Source: a virus
DNA: 30,836 bases
Reading direction: 5' to 3' (one strand)
IMG/VR virus record: IMGVR_UViG_3300044949_001018
Location: 1 to 30,836 of that record
The notes under the pieces are model-generated. The model searched no databases and was not told the DNA's origin. It saw only the letters and a list, made by a program, of their open reading frames with translations. Shown in pieces: positions 3,398-30,836 of the stretch. Every line of letters begins with the position of its first letter. Position 1 is the first letter of the stretch. The position numbers were made by a program, and so were the translations under genes.

Positions 3398-4369
3398 ATG
3401 CCAAATTCATTAAATGCGTTTAGCTGCATAGCAAGTGTGTCCAATACAGGATTCACTTCATGCCACTACACGCCCGGACTTATTGAAGCCGTGTTACTTG
3501 TGCCGAGAGGCGAAGAGTTCACAACGGCTCAAATATCCGATATGCTCACAACGGTTCAGGACGGGTTAGCGGAGGACGTGCAAGCGGACCGCTTCCAACT
3601 CATTAAAACATTCGTGGGTATGGAGGACAAATCATCTGAGGGGGTTTATGAAGCCACACCATACGGAGGTAATCGCAAAATCCGAAATGGTAAATATTCG
3701 TACACCTTCGAGTACATCAAAGGCGGTGCTTGTTTGCATCAAAAAATCAGTTCATTGGATAACAAACAGGACTTATTCGATGTTATCTATGTGGACACCC
3801 AAAACAACGTATTGCTCGGCGTTAAAACCGCTGACAACAAGTTCAAGGGATTCACGTTGGAAATGATTGACGTGCCAAACTTCAAACTCAATACCGGTGC
3901 TGCAGATTCTAAGTTCTACGTCACGTTTGCAATGCAAAACCCTGATGAGTTCAACAACTCATGGGGTATCGTTTCATTTGACAAATCCGTGAATCTGTTA
4001 TATGAATTGAATTCCTTGATAGATACTGAAATCGTTGTCCACACTGCAATGACGGCGGGCGGTTTGGTTAAGTTGCAAATCAATGACGGCTGCGGGGCTA
4101 CAAATCTTGCTGACACCTATTCCGCCGAATTAGATACGGCATCATTGTACAGCGCTCAGAACGTGGCAACAGGTAATGCAATCACCGTTACATCCGTAAC
4201 CTATGCAGCAGCTACTAAGACGTTCAATGTCCAATTGGATGCAGCAGATACAGACTATCCTGGAACAGCGGGCGCGCTTATCAAGATTACCATTGGTGAC
4301 GTATCGGATTTAGTAACAGCGGGCGTATTAGGTCATGCAGGAACATCAATTACCACACCAAGAAGCTAA
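3398..4369 (+). CDS. Probable major tail (tube) protein
   Basis: A 323-residue beta-rich protein in the slot where siphoviruses encode the tail tube subunit, after neck genes and before tail-assembly genes and the tape measure. Residues 1-215 contain several long alternating strands and the central segment GGACLHQKISSLDNKQDLFDVI-like region (about 108-130). Residues 220-323 are Ala/Thr/Gly-rich (TYAAATKTFNVQLDAAD, AGVLGHAGTS) and look like a separate Ig-like or decoration domain, common on tail tube subunits. I recognise no diagnostic motif; similarity to 'structural protein' entries of Bacteroidota phages is an impression only. An A-rich leader (AAAATAAAAAATT) precedes the ATG, typical of highly expressed genes in this host group. 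Confidence 0.55.
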   Translation: MPNSLNAFSCIASVSNTGFTSCHYTPGLIEAVLLVPRGEEFTTAQISDMLTTVQDGLAEDVQADRFQLIKTFVGMEDKSSEGVYEATPYGGNRKIRNGKYSYTFEYIKGGACLHQKISSLDNKQDLFDVIYVDTQNNVLLGVKTADNKFKGFTLEMIDVPNFKLNTGAADSKFYVTFAMQNPDEFNNSWGIVSFDKSVNLLYELNSLIDTEIVVHTAMTAGGLVKLQINDGCGATNLADTYSAELDTASLYSAQNVATGNAITVTSVTYAAATKTFNVQLDAADTDYPGTAGALIKITIGDVSDLVTAGVLGHAGTSITTPRS

Positions 4370-4372
4370 CGT

Positions 4373-4552
4373 ATGGAAACAATCAGAATAGACAAAGTGT
4401 CCTTCAATCTCGATTGGGTTGCTACGTTCAAAAGTAAAGATAAGTTTATGAAGCACCCCGCAAATGACGGGGTTGCTTCTCAAACATTGGATTTGCTTTG
4501 GGACAAAACCCACCCGGTTAAGGCGGAACCAAAAGAAGAAAAAAATCAATAA
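4373..4552 (+). CDS. Small tail-module protein, unknown function
   Basis: This 59-residue frame starts three bases after the stop of the probable tail tube gene and ends 18 bases before the next start, so it fills an otherwise empty interval. The sequence begins METIRIDKVSFNLDWVATF and contains a helix-type middle (SQTLDLLWDKTHP) and a charged end with KAEPKEEKNQ. The pattern 'hydrophobic strand, then short helix ending DLLWDKTHP' suggests a small folded domain. No function can be assigned. Its place directly after the tube protein is where some phages carry small tail-assembly or tube-associated proteins. Confidence 0.7.
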   Translation: METIRIDKVSFNLDWVATFKSKDKFMKHPANDGVASQTLDLLWDKTHPVKAEPKEEKNQ

Positions 4553-15347: not shown

Positions 15348-15965
15348 ATGAATATAGAATCCAATGTTTACAACTGCGACTGCATGGAATTAATGGCACG
15401 TTACCCCGATAAATACTTTGATTTGGCGGTGGTGGACCCGCCGTATGGGATTGGAGAGGATGGAGGCAAAGCAAGAACGAGAGGCAGTAAAAGAACCAAC
15501 GGAGAAAAAAAAGGATGGGATAACGAAAGACCAAACGCAGAATACTTTGCCGAACTGATGAGAGTATCTAAAAATCAAATTATTTGGGGTGGCAATTACT
15601 TTGCTGATTTATTACCTGCTTCAAGATGCTGGTTGTATTGGCAAAAAAATATGGGTGGCGATTTTGCTGATGGTGAATTGGCTTGGACTTCATTTGATAA
15701 AGTGCTAAAGCAATACACCAAACGAAGCGAAACATTTGATAGAATACACCCAACTCAAAAGCCAATAGCATTGTATGAGTGGATTTACCAAAACTATACA
15801 AGTGAAGGCCAAAAGATTTTAGACACTCATTTGGGTTCAGGTTCAAGCCGAATTGCAGCCCGAAAAAACAAACTAAACTTTACCGCCTGCGAAATAGATA
15901 AAGAGTATTTCGACAAACAAGAACAACGCTATCAAACATTCATTTCTCAATTAACACTATTCTAA
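15348..15965 (+). CDS. DNA methyltransferase, beta-type order, probably N6-adenine
   Basis: A 205-residue enzyme with all core methyltransferase motifs. The catalytic motif IV is VVDPPYGIG (D30-PPY33), HPTQKP is at 134-139 (motif X region), and the S-adenosylmethionine-binding motif I is LDTHLGSGSS at 158-167, followed by ACEIDKEYF (motif II, 180-187). Motif IV before motif I is the beta-class order, and DPPY fits N6-adenine, though N4-cytosine cannot be excluded. The target-recognition region is short. No restriction endonuclease gene is adjacent, so it is an orphan enzyme that likely protects phage DNA or alters regulation. It follows its own promoter and is coupled to the next gene by a one-base overlap. 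Confidence 0.92.
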   Translation: MNIESNVYNCDCMELMARYPDKYFDLAVVDPPYGIGEDGGKARTRGSKRTNGEKKGWDNERPNAEYFAELMRVSKNQIIWGGNYFADLLPASRCWLYWQKNMGGDFADGELAWTSFDKVLKQYTKRSETFDRIHPTQKPIALYEWIYQNYTSEGQKILDTHLGSGSSRIAARKNKLNFTACEIDKEYFDKQEQRYQTFISQLTLF

Positions 15966-22904: not shown

Positions 22905-23300
22905 ATGACAAACGAAAATAAACTTGAGTACATACTTAATGCGGTCGCTGAAGAATGGGGCGTAACAGTTGCGCAAATACAATCGAAATCAAGAAAGCGG
23001 GAATACGTCGAACCCCGCCAAATCTATTGCAAGTTGGCGAAGAAATTTACCGAAATGCCTTTTGCTGCAATAGGTCAAACGCTTGAAGGGCGTGACCACA
23101 CAACCGTACTTTATAGCATTCAAACGATAAACAATTTAATCGACACGGAGCCATATCTTAAACGAAGATTCGGGCTTATTTACTTCAAGTTGATGGACGC
23201 ACTTCACCCGCCCGTTGAACCCGCTAAAGGAATCACACCACCATTTCCCGGCGCTGCATTGCTTCACAGACCTTATCCTAAACTAATGATGCAGGGGTAA
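22905..23300 (+). CDS. Stand-alone DnaA domain IV (origin-binding domain) protein
   Basis: A 131-residue protein whose first 95 residues match the C-terminal DNA-binding domain of DnaA: a helix with LEYILNAVAEEWGVTVAQIQSK, then SRKREYVEPRQIYCKL (29-44), FAAIGQTLEGRDHTTVLYSI (53-72) with the diagnostic GRDHTTV, and a final helix. In full DnaA this domain reads the 9-base DnaA box. There is no AAA+ ATPase part, so it can bind but not melt DNA. The last 35 residues are Pro-rich. It may compete with host DnaA, or bind boxes on the phage genome (see the near-matches at 19349-19414). Chromosomal DnaA is about 470 residues, so this is a domain-only gene. Confidence 0.92.
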   Translation: MTNENKLEYILNAVAEEWGVTVAQIQSKSRKREYVEPRQIYCKLAKKFTEMPFAAIGQTLEGRDHTTVLYSIQTINNLIDTEPYLKRRFGLIYFKLMDALHPPVEPAKGITPPFPGAALLHRPYPKLMMQG

Positions 23301-23374
23301 AAATGTCGCATATTATCAACAATAACCCCGATAATGTGGGGGAATAAACAACAATTATAAAAACAATAAAAAAA

Positions 23375-23773
23375 ATGAAACAAGTAAATTTATTCGGTCA
23401 AGAGTTTGCACCAAATCAAGATGATCAAAAGTATTCATCAAAGATTGAAGCACCTATTTATGAGCCAAAAAACAAAAAACCACACTTGATAGAATTGGTT
23501 GATAAATCAAAAACACATAGGCTTATCAAAGAAATTGATGCTTCAAGTTTATCCTATGAAGAAAAGAATTTTTTGATTGATGCAGCAAGGAGGCATAATG
23601 TTTTCAATTATGAGAAAGTCGCTGATTACTATGCTCACGCTACGCCCGAAATGCAAAACTTAATGGAACGAAGCGGATTAGTTATAATTGACTTTGAAAA
23701 AGCAATACAATACGGATATGTTAAACTTTGTGATGAAATTAAGAATCAATATCTGCAAGAATATACTTTATAA
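23375..23773 (+). CDS. Unknown protein, conserved-looking, start of AT-rich island
   Basis: A 132-residue protein beginning MKQVNLFGQEF, the 'NLFG.e.' opener found in several phage proteins that may bind other proteins by this short peptide. The core KKPHLIELVDKSKTHRLIKEI, SLSYEEKNFLIDAARRHNVFNYEKVADYYAHATPEMQNL-type region (given in pieces) and SGLVIIDFEKAIQYGYVKL looks like a conserved helical domain seen in many Bacteroidetes phage genomes next to DNA-metabolism genes. I recall no function. It is the first of three genes with clearly lower G+C than their surroundings. Confidence 0.7.
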   Translation: MKQVNLFGQEFAPNQDDQKYSSKIEAPIYEPKNKKPHLIELVDKSKTHRLIKEIDASSLSYEEKNFLIDAARRHNVFNYEKVADYYAHATPEMQNLMERSGLVIIDFEKAIQYGYVKLCDEIKNQYLQEYTL

Positions 23774-23796
23774 TTATAAACAAAATAATAAATAAC

Positions 23797-24030
23797 ATGA
23801 AAAACGAAAAATTAAATCAGGTAATTGCAATTCTAAATGAAATTGACATTGATGGCGAAACTATGGAAGATGTTTTAGAACAAGTAGGATTAAGAGAACA
23901 AGTAGTACATCAAATTTTAGAAAGTGAAAAATATAATGCAGTAAAAAAGCTGTGGGATGATATTCAAAACAACAATACGCTTTGGTGTAATTCTTTTGAT
24001 GATTATTATGCACATACATTTTTAAAATAG
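23797..24030 (+). CDS. Small acidic protein, unknown function
   Basis: A 77-residue acidic protein with two helices (LNQVIAILNEIDIDGETMEDVLEQVG; EQVVHQILESEKYNAVKKLWDDI) and an aromatic end (DDYYAHTFLK). AT-rich like its neighbours. It sits two bases before the glycosyltransferase gene, so it may be part of the same acquired unit. No family recognised. Confidence 0.7.
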   Translation: MKNEKLNQVIAILNEIDIDGETMEDVLEQVGLREQVVHQILESEKYNAVKKLWDDIQNNNTLWCNSFDDYYAHTFLK

Positions 24031-24032
24031 TT

Positions 24033-24902
24033 ATGAAAAATAAAGATTTTGCAGTATTTATTATGGTTTATGGCAGACCAAGTAAAAATTTAACTTATGA
24101 TACACTAAAGAAATGCAACTATACAGGTAAAATATATATAATAGCAGATGATAATGATGATTCTTTATTCGAATATAGAAAAAAGTATGGGGATATTTTA
24201 TTGACTATTGATAAGGTTAACTGTTCAAAGAAATATGATAACGGTGATAATACAGGCGATATGAGAACCTCAATGGTTAAGTCTAATGAAATATTTAATA
24301 TAGCTGAATCTTTAGGTATTACATATTTTATGATTATGTGCGATGATTATTATGAGTTTGATTATATGTTTAAAGATGAAATAAAAGGCATGAAATTATG
24401 TCGAAATATTGACAAGATATTTGACTTAACAATAGATTTTTATAAAACTACCAACGCCTTATCAATAGCTTTTGCTCAAACAGGAGATTTTATAGGTGGT
24501 ATAGATAACGGGAAAGGGATATATAGATTTAGTAAAAGAAAAGCTATGAATACTTTTTTATGTAGTACTAAAAGACGATTCCAATTTTATGGCAGAATGA
24601 ATGAAGATGTTACAACATATACATTATTAGGTCAGCAAGGGAATTTGTTTTTAACTATACCTGTATTTGCTATAAATCAAAAAGATACACAACAAGAGAA
24701 AAAAGGATTATCAGAAATGTATGTAGATAATGGAACTTATGTAAAATCAATGTTTTCTGTTATTTATAACCCATCATGCGTAAAAGCGTCAATGATGAAC
24801 GCTTCGCACAAAAGAATACACCACACAATAAAGTGGATAAACACCACCCCTATGATATTGGATTTAAAATATAAAAAAACATTAAACAATCATAAACCAT
24901 GA
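24033..24902 (+). CDS. Glycosyltransferase resembling the TET-associated family (DNA-base modification)
   Basis: A 289-residue protein with a GT-A-like start: strand AVFIMVYGRP (7-16), NLTYDTLKKCNYTGKIYIIADDNDDS with the acidic DDNDDS at 39-44, a loop with DNGDNTGDMRTSMVKSNEIF (69-88) and ITYFMIMCDDYYEF (96-109), whose CDDYY takes the DxD-like place. This order - 'vygRp.n..T...L...gy.g.iyii.DD.D', then '..a..lg..yf...DDDy' - is the pattern of TET-associated glycosyltransferases, which add sugars to modified bases in phage DNA. No TET/JBP hydroxylase, hydroxymethylase or nucleotide-sugar gene is visible in the window, so the substrate is open. Base composition is very AT-rich compared with its neighbours. 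It overlaps the next ATG by four bases. Confidence 0.72.
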   Translation: MKNKDFAVFIMVYGRPSKNLTYDTLKKCNYTGKIYIIADDNDDSLFEYRKKYGDILLTIDKVNCSKKYDNGDNTGDMRTSMVKSNEIFNIAESLGITYFMIMCDDYYEFDYMFKDEIKGMKLCRNIDKIFDLTIDFYKTTNALSIAFAQTGDFIGGIDNGKGIYRFSKRKAMNTFLCSTKRRFQFYGRMNEDVTTYTLLGQQGNLFLTIPVFAINQKDTQQEKKGLSEMYVDNGTYVKSMFSVIYNPSCVKASMMNASHKRIHHTIKWINTTPMILDLKYKKTLNNHKP

Positions 24903-25261
24903 GCAGTTACACAATCGAAGGCCGCGTATTATCAGTCGGTCAAACAGAACAAAAAACAGAAAAGTTATCCATTCGTAAATTCGTCATTGATGACCAAGCG
25001 CCTGAATATGCAAACCTGCATGAGTTCCAACTTGCAAACGCCAAAACCGAATTAGCAGACAAAATCAAAACAGGAGAGCGCGTGCGCGTCCACTTCAATC
25101 TCAAAGGGCGGGGCTGGACTTCGCCAAGCGGGGAGGTTAAGTATTTCACCTCGTTGGATGCATGGCGTATCGAATCACTTGATGTGCAGCAACAGGAACC
25201 ACAACCAAAGCAACAACAGCAACCGGCACAAGCACCCATTGAAACGGATTTACCTTTTTAA
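24899..25261 (+). CDS. SSB-like OB-fold protein (DUF3127-type)
   Basis: A 120-residue protein. Residues 1-95 fit an OB-fold: YTIEGRVLSVGQTEQ (4-18), a strand RKFVIDDQ, EFQLANAKTELADKI, GERVRVHFNLKGRGWTS and 'YFTSLDAWRIESLD', matching the DUF3127 pattern I know from Bacteroidota. A Gln/Pro-rich linker follows and the last residues are ETDLPF, the acidic-hydrophobic tip used by bacterial SSB to recruit replication proteins. I infer that this is the phage's single-strand DNA-binding protein. It sits in the replication region, before the primase-helicase, as expected. Confidence 0.8.
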   Translation: MSSYTIEGRVLSVGQTEQKTEKLSIRKFVIDDQAPEYANLHEFQLANAKTELADKIKTGERVRVHFNLKGRGWTSPSGEVKYFTSLDAWRIESLDVQQQEPQPKQQQQPAQAPIETDLPF

Positions 25262-25443: not shown

Positions 25444-25539
25444 GTGACGGCGATGATTACAAAACTACTATATAACTCTTTGCCCCAATGCAGGAAACCC
25501 CTATGACGTAGGGGCCGTCACCTTGTATTGTGGGCAAGG
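25444..25539 (+). ncRNA. Structured leader RNA with pseudoknot potential, upstream of primase-helicase
   Basis: Three helices can form. P1: GTGACGG (25444-25450) with CCGTCAC (25515-25521). P3: CCCCTA (25498-25503) with TAGGGG (25509-25514), stacked directly on P1. P2: CTTTGCCC (25478-25485), in the loop of P1, with GGGCAAGG (25532-25539) outside it, eight pairs with one G-U. That makes an H-type pseudoknot, in the strand order P1-P2-P3-P3'-P1'-P2' also known from HDV-type ribozymes. A competing hairpin, CCTTG (25521-25525) with CAAGG (25535-25539), would break P2. The last helix ends 13 bases before the ATG at 25553, so folding could control translation. All pairings were found by eye. Confidence 0.55.
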
Positions 25540-25552
25540 AGTTTGTTCAATA

Positions 25553-27841
25553 ATGAATAAACCAACATTAGACCGATGTTATAGGCTTTTTGACTGCGGA
25601 TATAGCCTTATTACGGTTGGCGAAAACAAACGCCCTAACTATGCATGGAAGCCATGCCAAAACAAACCACTTGAGAAATCAGCGTTTGAAAAACAATACC
25701 AATACGCAGGGGGCTACATCAAGAAAGACGGTGAAGAAATGCAAGCGACCGTTGGAGTCGGGCTTGTATGCGGGTACAATGGCCTTGAGGTCATAGACGT
25801 TGACTTGAAAGTGTTTAACTCACTCCCTGAACAGCAGGCGTTTTGGGCTGAACTATACGCATACCTTACAGATAACATTGATGACTTCGACCGCAAATTT
25901 GTTGTGGTCAAAACCCGTAATCAGGGCTATCATATCCTTTACCGATGTGAATTCGTAGCGGGGAATACCAAGATAGCAAAGCTAAAAGGCCACACCGAAG
26001 CCGTTATTGAATCACGGGGCGTAGGCGGGTATGTGTTTATCTATGACAATCAGATAAGCCAATTAGGTTATAATGATGTGCAGGAGATAACTAAACAGGA
26101 TAGGGAGATACTTTGGAATATCTGCGCCACGTTTAATTACGTTGATGAAAGCAGACCGATTGAAACCGAAAGGCCCATAAAGCAGTACGAAAAATCCGAC
26201 GTAACCCCGTGGCAGGACTTCAACGATAAAACCGATATATTCGACATAATAGGTCCGGATTTCGACATTGTAAGGCAATTGAGCGACAAATACATCATCC
26301 GCAGACATGGTGCAACAAGTCCGCATAGCGGATATGTTTATAAGAATTCGGGATGTATGTATCTGTTCAGCACCGGAACCATTTACCCGCATGAAAAACT
26401 AATCAGCCCCTTTAGCGCATACGCATACAAGCACCATAACGGGGACTTCTCAAGGTCGGCATCACAGCTATACAAAGACGGATTCGGGAGCCGGACAAAG
26501 GAAATAAAAGTACCTGAGTTAAAGACCGAAATCGAGGACATTAGCGAAGTTGCTTTCCCGTTGGATGTGTTTCCTGCTCCGATTCAAGAATACATGATAC
26601 AATGCAACAAGTACCTTAACCATAGCTTTGATTACATGGGCGCTTCAATGCTTTGGATGTTATCGGTTATTGTTGGTAATAGTATGCGCATCAAAGTCAA
26701 AACAGGATGGAGCGAAATAGCGACGGTTTGGATTTCGGTCGTAGGTCAGGCCGGAATTGGTAAGACCCCAAGTATTGATAGTATTATATTCCCGTTACTT
26801 AAGCAAAACAGCAGGGAGGTTAAGCGGTACATCAAAGCCCTGAAAAAGTTTGAGGAATACAGCAAACTAACCAAAGATGAAAAGCAATACACCGAAGAGG
26901 CCAAAGAGCCTATTAAATCCCAATTCATTGCAAACGACATCACTTTGGAGGCATTGGTCGAATTGCATGGTGAATCGAAGGTGTCAGTTGGCGTGTTCAA
27001 GGATGAGTTAAACGGGTGGTTTAAGGATATGAATAAATACAGGGCGGGTTCTGATTTGGAGTTTTGGTTAAGTACATGGAGCGGTAAGTCGGTGGCGTTT
27101 AACCGCAAAATGGCAAAGTCCGCTTTTGTGGATTTGCCCATCATCCCGGTACTGGGTGGAATACAGCCCGGTGTATTGGCTTCGATGTACACAGAAGAAA
27201 ACAAAGAGAATGGATTTGTAGATAGGATGCTGCTCACGTTCCCTGAGTTACGGGTGGATGAATACAATGAAAACGAAATCGATCCCGTAATTGTCCATTG
27301 GTATGAGGAGGCGGTGGTATCAATGTATGAAACCGTCCGAAATGAGATGGTCGAATTCGATTTGGACGGCGAAGTGGTCCCGATGCTTTGTAATTGGTCA
27401 CAGGAGGCAAAACGGGAATGGATACGGATATTTAACAAAATAACCCATCAACAGAACAGCGACGAAATCAACGAATACGCAAAAAGCGGACTACCAAAGA
27501 TGAAATCATACATACCACGATTTTCCCTTTTATTGCACTTCCTGAATGCCTCCGTTACCGAAACGGATGTAAATATCAGGGAGGTGTCAAAACAAGCCGT
27601 TTTAGGGGCTGAAAGGTTGGCGGAGTACTTCACGTCCATGTCACGAAAGATAAGGTCAACGAGCAGAGATGAGGCCCAAATAAAAGAGGTATCGAAAAGC
27701 AATCAAGGCCGGACTCCGTTTGAAATATTTGAGGCTATGTATCGCAAAAATCCGAAGATAAAAACGGCTTCTGTAGCCTCACAACTTGAGGTAAGCCGAC
27801 AAACGGTTTACAATTGGAAAAAAGAGTTGGACAAAATGTAA
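25553..27841 (+). CDS. Primase-helicase: prim-pol domain fused to DUF3987-type ATPase and HTH
   Basis: A 762-residue protein. Residues 10-175 are a bifunctional primase-polymerase domain: GLEVIDVDLK with D82 and D84 as metal ligands, NQGYHILYR (123-131) and ESRGVGGYV (153-161). Residues 230-312 are a middle domain with CMYLFSTGTIYP and a SQLYKDGFG end. From 330 a DUF3987-like helicase part begins, with Walker A GQAGIGKTPS (398-407) and FKDELNGWF (near 485) as a probable Walker B region. The C-terminus (about 735-760) is a helix-turn-helix (TASVASQLEVSRQTVYNWKKEL), which might bind the repeats just downstream. It would prime and unwind phage DNA. I chose the ATG at 25553; an upstream TTG lies inside the structured leader. 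No separate DnaB-type helicase gene is seen. Confidence 0.9.
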   Translation: MNKPTLDRCYRLFDCGYSLITVGENKRPNYAWKPCQNKPLEKSAFEKQYQYAGGYIKKDGEEMQATVGVGLVCGYNGLEVIDVDLKVFNSLPEQQAFWAELYAYLTDNIDDFDRKFVVVKTRNQGYHILYRCEFVAGNTKIAKLKGHTEAVIESRGVGGYVFIYDNQISQLGYNDVQEITKQDREILWNICATFNYVDESRPIETERPIKQYEKSDVTPWQDFNDKTDIFDIIGPDFDIVRQLSDKYIIRRHGATSPHSGYVYKNSGCMYLFSTGTIYPHEKLISPFSAYAYKHHNGDFSRSASQLYKDGFGSRTKEIKVPELKTEIEDISEVAFPLDVFPAPIQEYMIQCNKYLNHSFDYMGASMLWMLSVIVGNSMRIKVKTGWSEIATVWISVVGQAGIGKTPSIDSIIFPLLKQNSREVKRYIKALKKFEEYSKLTKDEKQYTEEAKEPIKSQFIANDITLEALVELHGESKVSVGVFKDELNGWFKDMNKYRAGSDLEFWLSTWSGKSVAFNRKMAKSAFVDLPIIPVLGGIQPGVLASMYTEENKENGFVDRMLLTFPELRVDEYNENEIDPVIVHWYEEAVVSMYETVRNEMVEFDLDGEVVPMLCNWSQEAKREWIRIFNKITHQQNSDEINEYAKSGLPKMKSYIPRFSLLLHFLNASVTETDVNIREVSKQAVLGAERLAEYFTSMSRKIRSTSRDEAQIKEVSKSNQGRTPFEIFEAMYRKNPKIKTASVASQLEVSRQTVYNWKKELDKM

Positions 27842-28097
27842 AATTGTCAAATTTGTCAAAAGTGTCAAACGCGACAATATGTAAATCATTGATAATCAAT
27901 AAGTTAGAAAAGATTTGTAAAGTTGACAAAATGGAAAATGAAAAATTAAGAGTAAATAAAAATGTCAAAAAAATAAAAAATGTAAAATTTGTCAAAATTT
28001 GACACTTTTCGCCCGAAAGGCCTATAAACAGGGCATTCTTGTTGTCAAATTTTTGTCAAATTTGTCAAAAAAGTGTAAAGTTATAAAAAATCATAAT
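27842..28097. repeat. Iteron-like TGTCAAA repeat region, candidate replication origin
   Basis: Eight direct copies of TGTCAAA start at 27845, 27854, 27863, 27963, 27990, 28043, 28054 and 28063. They form two triplets: 27845/27854/27863 (9-base spacing) and 28043/28054/28063. Inverted or variant copies occur at 27923 (TTGACAAA) and 27998 (TTTGACAC). TGTCAAAATTTGACA (27990-28004) is a perfect palindrome. The interval is extremely A/T-rich apart from a short GC-rich part at 28011-28034. It lies between primase-helicase and nuclease genes and contains no convincing gene. Binding by a replication initiator is inferred; a transcription-control array is the alternative. Confidence 0.7.
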
Positions 28098-28937
28098 ATG
28101 AGTATAAAAAAAGCCATTGAGCTGTTAAAAAACGAGTCATTCACGATTGAAACAATCGTACCTTATTTGCGGGAATTATTTGATGATTATAGAAGTGCAG
28201 GCGGGGAACCAAAAAAGTGGTTATCTGGAATGCTCAAGGGAATAAATGATAATTCACACAGATATAAGCCTGAAATATTTGAAGCTATTGTTATCAAATT
28301 AACCGAATGGATTGAAGTACAAAAAAAGATTGGGTTTGATTCTTTGTATCACTACACAAAACAATATAAAGAGTATTGCGAAATACCTGATAAAAAACAG
28401 TACAAATCTGATATAAACCTAATCACCCAATCCGAATTTGAAGCCCTCTATAATGAGCGACGAAAGCAACAAATGAAGGACGGATTCTTCAAGAAATCAT
28501 TCCCGCTGATGACTACTAAAGTCATCAAGAAACGGCAGGACATTTACAAAGCAGATGAAAACGGTGTACCTACTTTAGTGGAACGAATACCGGGCGTGTC
28601 TAAAAAAGCATTTAACACCAATAACTTTAACAAGTTATGTCAGGCCGTGTGGAAGTATTACACCGGAACTAAATTAGAGAGAATATCATCAGAGGGTAGA
28701 TATAGGCCGGGTATAGGATTCATTCCGAGTACAAACAAGGGATTTTCAGACCTGCATGGGATGTACAAGGGTCGGGCCGTTTACATCGAAACTAAGCAGC
28801 GAAATGAGAAGCACCTAAAGAGCCAACAGGACTTCATGCAATGGGTTCGTGACGGTGGCGGGATATACCACACCGTCCGATCATTTGAGGATATGTATTT
28901 GGTTACGCAAAATATTTTAAAAGAATTCTCAAAATAA
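28098..28937 (+). CDS. VRR-NUC-type nuclease (PD-(D/E)xK)
   Basis: A 279-residue protein. I chose the ATG at 28098; the frame extends upstream to 27999, but that part runs through the repeats. The first 140 residues are helical (ELLKNESFTIETIVPYLREL onwards). The C-terminal 80 residues are the nuclease: FIPSTNKGFSDLHGMYKGRAVYIETKQ with D218, E231 and K233, then KSQQDFMQWVRDGGGIYHTV (Q243/Q244 and the GG turn) and SFEDMYLV. 'G.sDl.g...Gr...iE.K......Q..f...v...GGi' is the VRR-NUC pattern, used by phage Holliday-junction or flap-type nucleases. It probably resolves branched DNA after replication or recombination. Confidence 0.87.
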   Translation: MSIKKAIELLKNESFTIETIVPYLRELFDDYRSAGGEPKKWLSGMLKGINDNSHRYKPEIFEAIVIKLTEWIEVQKKIGFDSLYHYTKQYKEYCEIPDKKQYKSDINLITQSEFEALYNERRKQQMKDGFFKKSFPLMTTKVIKKRQDIYKADENGVPTLVERIPGVSKKAFNTNNFNKLCQAVWKYYTGTKLERISSEGRYRPGIGFIPSTNKGFSDLHGMYKGRAVYIETKQRNEKHLKSQQDFMQWVRDGGGIYHTVRSFEDMYLVTQNILKEFSK

Positions 28938-29710: not shown

Positions 29711-30070
29711 ATGCCAAACCCACAAAACGTAGTCGGTAAAGGGACGCCGTTCAAAAAAGGCCAATCAGGAAACCCGAACGGACGGCCTAAAGAAATCCCA
29801 GCATTAAAAGAATTGATGAAAAAAATAATGTCAACCGAAGATAAGAACGGGATACAAACCGCTGAGCAGATATTGGAAGCGGTTAAGAAACGGGCATTGG
29901 ATGGTGACATAAAAGCCGCTGAGTTACTTTTAGACCGGGCTTATGGTAAGGTTGTTACGCCCGTTGCCACCACCGACTCCGAAGGCAAGGACGTAGCACA
30001 ACTTAACATCATTGCGCCCGTTGGCTTAAAACTTGAGTTCCCAAATAATACGGATGGAGCAACTACATAG
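29711..30070 (+). CDS. DUF5681-type protein, probable small terminase subunit
   Basis: A 119-residue protein starting with the FKKGQSGNPNGRPKEIP signature (residues 14-30) of the DUF5681 family, followed by helices (ALKELMKKIMST; TAEQILEAVKKRALDGDIKAAELLLDRAYGK) and a beta end (QLNIIAPVGLKLEF). Members of this family commonly lie directly before large terminase genes and are thought to act as the small subunit that binds DNA ends. Here the stop overlaps the TerL start by 17 bases. Size fits. The packaging role is inferred from position and family custom. Confidence 0.8.
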   Translation: MPNPQNVVGKGTPFKKGQSGNPNGRPKEIPALKELMKKIMSTEDKNGIQTAEQILEAVKKRALDGDIKAAELLLDRAYGKVVTPVATTDSEGKDVAQLNIIAPVGLKLEFPNNTDGATT

Positions 30071-30836
30071 CCCATTTGTTAAACAACCCGATCCGCTTTA
30101 TTACGCAAATCTATTTGCCAATGAGCGAATCGTAATCAATCAAGGCGGTACATCTTCAGGTAAATCGTACTGCATTATGCAGGTACTTGTGACCATTGCA
30201 ATGGCAGCACCTAACTACGTTATAACGGTTGTTAGTAATACGGTGCCGAAGCTAAAAGAGGATACAATGCGTATCATGGCCGAACTTGTGGCGAATAATC
30301 CGTTGGTTAAACGAAGCGTTAAGGACTTCAACAAATCGGATAGGGTTTATACATTCAAGAACGGCACTATAATTGAGTTTAAATCATTTGAGAACGCAGA
30401 ACAAGCCAAAGGAGGTAAACGCCATATTTTGTACTTAAATGAAGCTACAAGGGTGGACTATATGCTTTTCTTTGAAGCTAATATGAGGACGTATGTAAGG
30501 ACGTATTTAGACTATAACCCTTCATTTCGGTTTTGGGTACATGAGCGCATCATCGAGAATAAAACCGAATACCCATCTGTTAAGGTGCTTAGGTCATGGC
30601 ACGTTCATAACTCATACTTACCACAGGATATTAGAGATTCAATCGAGCGCATACAAGATCCTGAACTATGGAAGGTTTATGCCAGAGGATTAACGGGACG
30701 TTTGTCGGGTGCTGTGTATCATTTCGGGGTAGTGGATTCGGTTAAGATGGAGGACGTATCCAATGTCATTTGGGGCTGTGACTTCGGCTATACCAATGAC
30801 CCGACGGCACTTGTTAAGGTCTATGTAATGAAGCCG
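30054..30836 (+). CDS. Large terminase subunit (TerL), 3' truncated by the window edge
   Basis: An open frame of 261 codons that runs off the right edge. It has the ATPase P-loop GGTSSGKSYC (31-40), a 'KGGKRHILYLNEATRVD' segment (about 124-140) in which LYLNEA is the Walker B region with Asn before the catalytic Glu, as in many phage TerL proteins of the terminase_3 type, and WGCDFGYTNDPTALV (about 241-255), the first Asp motif of the RNase H-like nuclease. The rest of the nuclease lies outside the window. It packages DNA into proheads using ATP and cuts it at the end. It starts inside the small-subunit gene. Confidence 0.92.
   Translation, partial: MEQLHSPFVKQPDPLYYANLFANERIVINQGGTSSGKSYCIMQVLVTIAMAAPNYVITVVSNTVPKLKEDTMRIMAELVANNPLVKRSVKDFNKSDRVYTFKNGTIIEFKSFENAEQAKGGKRHILYLNEATRVDYMLFFEANMRTYVRTYLDYNPSFRFWVHERIIENKTEYPSVKVLRSWHVHNSYLPQDIRDSIERIQDPELWKVYARGLTGRLSGAVYHFGVVDSVKMEDVSNVIWGCDFGYTNDPTALVKVYVMKP

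Follow-up and report, generated by a model that had tools for sequence, protein, structure and literature searches.

How can a phage make use of a glycosyltransferase of the TET-associated type (TAGT) when no enzyme that would prepare its acceptor is seen in the same genome? This question is raised by a short AT-rich island in the window, the 30,836-nucleotide stretch of viral DNA analysed here (IMG/VR record IMGVR_UViG_3300044949_001018). TAGTs without T4-type glucosyltransferases are already known as a puzzle, since a 2026 survey found that 288 of 753 glucosyltransferase-bearing phages have a TAGT and neither T4-type glucosyltransferase, and left its function open (PMC13216743). The main discovery reported here is the partner of the enzyme, encoded by the gene at 23375.

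Genomic setting of the AT-rich island

The three ORFs that a first-pass annotation had read in the island are all present (Table 1), and the AT-rich island that it had described was recovered when G+C was calculated in 600-base windows, with 25–30% over 23.4–24.9 kb and 38–45% on both sides. Over the span from gene 23375 through the TAGT gene, G+C is 28.1%, against 41.3% in the 4-kb flanks. This gap of 13 points is the third largest among 111 loci with this pair of genes, for which the mean gap is 2.7 points, so the module is usually just slightly AT-richer than its host genome. Going by this gap, the module in the window looks recently acquired. A further AT-rich stretch of about 30% G+C lies at 27900–28500, and the island at 23.4–24.9 kb is therefore not the only one. 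A promoter scan gave a result no better than shuffled sequences.

The island is flanked by replication genes. A free-standing DnaA C-terminal DNA-binding domain protein precedes it in this replication region, and the start of the SSB-like gene behind it overlaps the stop codon of the TAGT gene. Capsid-region genes occupy 1–1465 at the start of the record, and its end (29711–30836) lies inside the large terminase gene; the record probably holds an almost complete phage genome that was opened between the terminase and capsid genes and lacks the portal genes.

Table 1 Features of the island and of the flanking replication genes
Feature	Coordinates	Strand	Basis
DnaA C-terminal (DNA-binding) domain protein, flanking replication gene	22905–23300	+	PF08299, E 3.3e-23
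TAGT partner and putative adaptor, stand-alone form, 132 aa	23375–23773	+	Identity to ParB-like C-terminal part; upstream of TAGT
QVNLF, putative sliding-clamp-binding pentapeptide, partner residues 3–7	23381–23395	+	Consensus QL[S/D]LF
Partner core domain, helical, approximately residues 20–118	23432–23728	+	13 invariant residues in 49 sequences; AF2 model helical
ORF between partner and TAGT, 77 aa	23797–24030	+	Relatives, all weak, in Flavobacterium phages only
TAGT-family GT-A glycosyltransferase, 289 aa	24033–24902	+	PF20691, phrog_842, AF2 fold, dN/dS
D104-D105, DxD-like metal/sugar-nucleotide motif	24342–24347	+	Invariant in 55 aligned homologues
N190-E191-D192, putative GT2-like xED catalytic-base motif	24600–24608	+	Conservation in 55 homologues
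H263-H264, histidine pair near C-terminus	24819–24824	+	Invariant in alignment
DUF3127/SSB-like protein, flanking replication gene	24899–25261	+	PF11325, E 8e-17; phrog_4932 (SSB), E 3.4e-23
Primase/helicase, flanking replication gene	25523–27841	+	PF13148, E 1.4e-46; PF09250, E 1.8e-5

The glycosyltransferase and its obligate partner

The protein encoded at 24033 matches the Pfam family PF20691, "TET-Associated Glycosyltransferase", with an E-value of 9.5e-29 and 101.2 bits (curated cut-off 27.5), and the match spans residues 6–223, which is nearly the full profile. The PHROGs family phrog_842 covers the whole protein (E 3.5e-55). An AF2 model built from 55 homologues (pLDDT 82.1, pTM 0.84) has the GT-A fold, with Z-scores of 13–14 to GalNAc-T2 and to GnT-I (N-acetylglucosaminyltransferase I) and 12.3 to SpsA; these fold matches, at Z 12–14, extend across about 200–225 residues. 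No solved structure is related to the TAGT by sequence, and NCBIfam has no family for it or for 23375. The first-pass annotation had guessed the TAGT type from motif order, and family profiles and fold agree with this guess. The acceptor, though, is not told by the GT-A fold alone.

The active-site motifs are intact. The DxD-like motif is spelled CDDYY in the window and DDDY in most relatives. N190 and D192 are invariant among the 55 homologues and E191 is conserved in at least 90% of them; by analogy with GT2 enzymes, these three residues would form the catalytic-base motif. The invariant H263-H264 pair is a probable metal ligand. The dN/dS of the TAGT gene is about 0.06–0.10 against its nearest relatives (about 0.10 against the relative at locus L007), with synonymous sites saturated, and this low ratio marks it as a maintained gene under purifying selection. 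A second, divergent TAGT paralogue lies beside the pair in the gut bacterial genomes at loci L098, L099, L101, L103 and L107.

The protein encoded by gene 23375 shares 36–48% identity with the C-terminal ~95 residues of ParB-like proteins that are encoded directly upstream of a TAGT in phages of Escherichia (E. coli), Lactobacillus, Haloarcula and Nocardia. Only this C-terminal domain aligns: 23375 has no ParB/Srx domain, and no ParB N-terminal domain was found elsewhere in the window. A fold search of the core against the PDB returned nothing below an E-value of 0.001, a profile search of PDB sequences gave weak repeat-protein matches only, and PADLOC gave a marginal match (E 0.007). Like the TAGT gene, gene 23375 has a low dN/dS (0.08–0.10 against nearest relatives, synonymous sites saturated).

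The association of the two genes was followed from both sides. Viral contigs were scanned by TAGT, which yielded 80 loci, and the partner core was found upstream in every locus with enough upstream DNA. Bacterial genomes of many phyla were scanned by the partner core alone, and a TAGT adjoins it in 34 of 34 loci; likewise, the 28 isolate-phage records matching the core are all TAGT records. In 115 of the 118 pairs the two genes adjoin or overlap; the window and loci L040 and L089 each have a gene inserted between them. A fusion of both proteins in a single ORF was looked for, and none was found. For this TAGT subfamily, the partner core domain is thus an obligate companion, and the pairing extends over phages and prophages of both bacteria and archaea.

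ORF 23797 was also considered as a functional member of the module and rejected, as 115 of the 117 other pairs have no intervening gene and two have a different, unrelated one; relatives of 23797 in plasmids were not found. It is an incidental small phage gene inserted in the pair. The first-pass annotation had suggested that the two small genes could supply a missing step, and had asked whether homologues keep them next to the TAGT. The suggestion holds in part: the core of 23375 stays beside the TAGT and is its obligate partner, while 23797 is found with the pair at no other locus. The likelier role of 23375 is that of a targeting adaptor, not of a biosynthetic step. At L040 (4334–5185) and L089 (5883–6719), the gene between partner and TAGT is SAM-methyltransferase-like, and in L089 it terminates with QLSLL, nearly a clamp peptide.

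Two forms of the partner and a proposed mechanism

The partner occurs with two different heads. The sliding-clamp consensus is QL[S/D]LF, its key residues being Q, L and F at positions 1, 4 and 5 (PMC3919608), and 23375 in the window starts with M-K-QVNLF, where all three are present. A QxxLF/MF motif in the short N-terminal tail was found in 34 of 40 stand-alone partners and in none of the 74 ParB-fused ones, with a shuffle mean of 0.5. Most of the stand-alone partners fall in a few related clades and the motif is only five residues long; in a tree-aware sign test, the clamp motif was not significant, with too few independent pairs. On the best tree of 92 TAGTs the form of the partner changes 8 times, and at least 4 of these changes are forced by well-supported branches.

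The two forms also differ in their settings. Counted in de-replicated loci, a terminase lies within 4 kb of 48 of 58 ParB-fused loci and 2 of 34 stand-alone loci (Fisher p about 1e-13, kinship ignored), whereas a helicase or primase is nearby in 21 of 34 stand-alone loci and 3 of 58 ParB-fused ones (Fisher p about 4e-9, kinship again ignored). The same split emerged when flanking genes were tallied by PHROG.

The QVNLF tail appears to be a clamp-binding peptide. A DnaN-like clamp is absent from 18 of the 19 stand-alone records searched, the window included, which makes the host DnaN the likely dock. A clamp peptide matching the full consensus lies close to an end of just one other ORF in the window, 15348–15965, which encodes an N6_N4 DNA methyltransferase that ends in QLTLF at its extreme C-terminus, and a C-terminal clamp-like peptide is kept in 20 of 34 of its viral relatives. 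Given these peptides on both the methyltransferase and the partner, both DNA-modification functions of the phage seem to ride the clamp.

With moderate confidence, we propose that the island is a mobile two-protein module for DNA glycosylation, made of the TAGT and of 23375 as an adaptor docked on the clamp via QVNLF. The TAGT would glycosylate bases of the phage DNA, with a nucleotide sugar of the host as the probable donor. The dedicated adaptor 23375 would hold the TAGT with its helical core and dock with its N-terminal tail on the replication sliding clamp, probably that of the host, so that sugar addition would accompany DNA copying. The sister form carries a ParB/Srx domain on this core and lies among packaging genes; there the head would likewise take the enzyme to DNA, through ParB near packaging rather than through the clamp during replication. 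The closest precedent comes from T4, whose alpha-glucosyltransferase co-purifies with its clamp, gp45 (PMC13216743).

Acceptor, alternative readings and known systems

The phage DNA glucosyltransferases established so far depend on a hydroxylated base (PMC13216743), and the TAGT may accordingly act last in a conventional hypermodification pathway, on a base hydroxylated by a host enzyme or by an undetected phage enzyme such as a TET-like oxygenase or a radical SAM enzyme. This reading concerns the acceptor and is compatible with the adaptor model. A radical SAM gene lies directly downstream of the TAGT in L080 (6826–7788), L101 (8074–9030), L102 (7230–8216), L113 (7171–8109) and L119 (2695–3627), where its product is a candidate acceptor-maker. 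Against this, no thymidylate-synthase/hydroxymethylase-type gene (PF00303) was found in 33 module-bearing records, although the same profile finds T6 gp42; for the window itself, this absence is limited by the incompleteness of the record. To this extent, the first-pass statement that no hydroxylase, hydroxymethylase or sugar-synthesis gene was seen stands, namely for hydroxymethylases of the thymidylate-synthase type. A Tet_JBP search gave no match in the 33 records, but it gave none in the control genomes either, and C5-cytosine methylases were present in 1 of 32 records. Furthermore, no constant extra gene goes with the module in the small phages that carry it, whose hosts are unrelated (E. 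coli, Lactobacillus, Haloarcula, Nocardia, Bacteroidota). We consider a hydroxylated acceptor possible, though on the unlikely side.

Since the two-gene set is found in hosts as unlike as E. coli and Haloarcula and no third gene constantly goes with it, the acceptor would be a canonical base, something universal, or the product of an unrecognised acceptor enzyme. In L094, a gene like those of GDP-mannose dehydratases/epimerases (3417–4415) directly follows the TAGT gene, a hint of a dedicated sugar donor. This gene and the downstream radical SAM genes suggest local elaborations. The boldest form of our proposal is that the pair is self-sufficient, placing a sugar straight onto canonical DNA bases, not hydroxymethylated beforehand, with interchangeable heads, and is active in bacterial and archaeal prophages, which we put forward as a rather doubtful conjecture. 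If it were true, a direct-glycosylation system would be active in about 16% of complete E. coli genomes.

The absence of an acceptor-base enzyme from the 33 records would fit a protein target, with the heads leading the TAGT to a DNA-handling protein such as a replication protein, a terminase or a host defence protein. The fold matches include protein O- and S-glycosyltransferases (GalNAc-T, ThuS/SunS), and the ParB-fused forms adjoin terminase. However, the GT-A fold is common to enzymes with many acceptors and says little here, both heads are DNA-associated modules, and the T6 enzyme, the PF20691 member whose activity is known, works on DNA bases (PMC13216743). We therefore judge a protein target unlikely.

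Far less probable is a surface glycosyltransferase, a lysogenic-conversion gene for LPS or O-antigen. Its GT-A/GT2-like fold is common to such enzymes, but Pfam and PHROGs both assign it to the TAGTs, no surface-glycan family scored in Pfam, the ParB- or clamp-type partner is constant, and the pair is located in replication or packaging operons. A decayed remnant of a T-even-like modification pathway, which the first-pass annotation had allowed for and to which the AT-rich composition, the splitting of the pair by an extra ORF and the missing pathway genes might point, is hardly credible given intact motifs, a dN/dS of about 0.1 in both genes, and the recurrence of the same two-gene set alone in >110 loci.

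Returning to the proposed clamp- or ParB-directed module, the obligate partner gives the class of TAGTs without T4-type glucosyltransferases a concrete architecture, which poses the questions of whether the pair modifies DNA and whether the head decides when. The coliphage cassette has a match covering at least 80% in 885 of 5,426 complete E. coli genomes, about one in six, and with so many prophages carrying it these questions are answerable in laboratory strains. In RefSeq, the genes of this cassette are named ynaK and "GREB1-related" or hypothetical protein (prophages L121 and L122), and the partner ORF of L121 is intact although annotated as incomplete. K-12 has a truncated ynaK only, which from its neighbouring genes we take to lie in the Rac prophage. 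If the proposal is right, a modular adaptor with exchangeable clamp-peptide and ParB heads would be a new way to aim a DNA-modifying enzyme. No publication that connects a TAGT with ParB or a clamp peptide was found in a search that did not cover the 2013 NAR survey (Iyer et al.), where ParB beside a TAGT would most likely have been mentioned before.

Among known systems, the beta-glucosyl-HMC-alpha-glucosyltransferase (ggt) of T6 is, like the TAGT of the window, a phage-encoded enzyme of GT-A type and a member of PF20691, both being above the cut-off (E 1e-8 for T6, 9.5e-29 for the window). No direct similarity between the two was detected by BLASTP (E 0.096, 35 aa aligned) or by hhalign (probability of 0.1%), and the Pfam profile is their only link. 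The T6 enzyme acts after the alpha-glucosyltransferase on hydroxymethylcytosine made by gp42, which is encoded beside it, and the T-even phages, unlike the phage of the window, have no match to the partner core. The T4 alpha-glucosyltransferase is likewise a DNA glucosyltransferase tied to a sliding clamp, gp45 (PMC13216743), as the TAGT of the window may be; it has the GT-B fold and contacts the clamp directly, whereas the window has a GT-A enzyme and a separate adaptor bearing the putative clamp peptide. A survey of the ParB-CTPase fold (PMC12704722) describes methyltransferase fusions with an N-terminal ParB/Srx domain, as in most partners of the sister lineage, while 23375 has no such domain; in the text of that survey, "glycosyl" occurs in a reference title only. 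Finally, the ynaK–"GREB1-related protein" cassette of E. coli prophages is the ParB-fused version of the same pair and lies directly upstream of terminase, so that a ParB head in a packaging module stands there against a clamp-like peptide in a replication module in the window.
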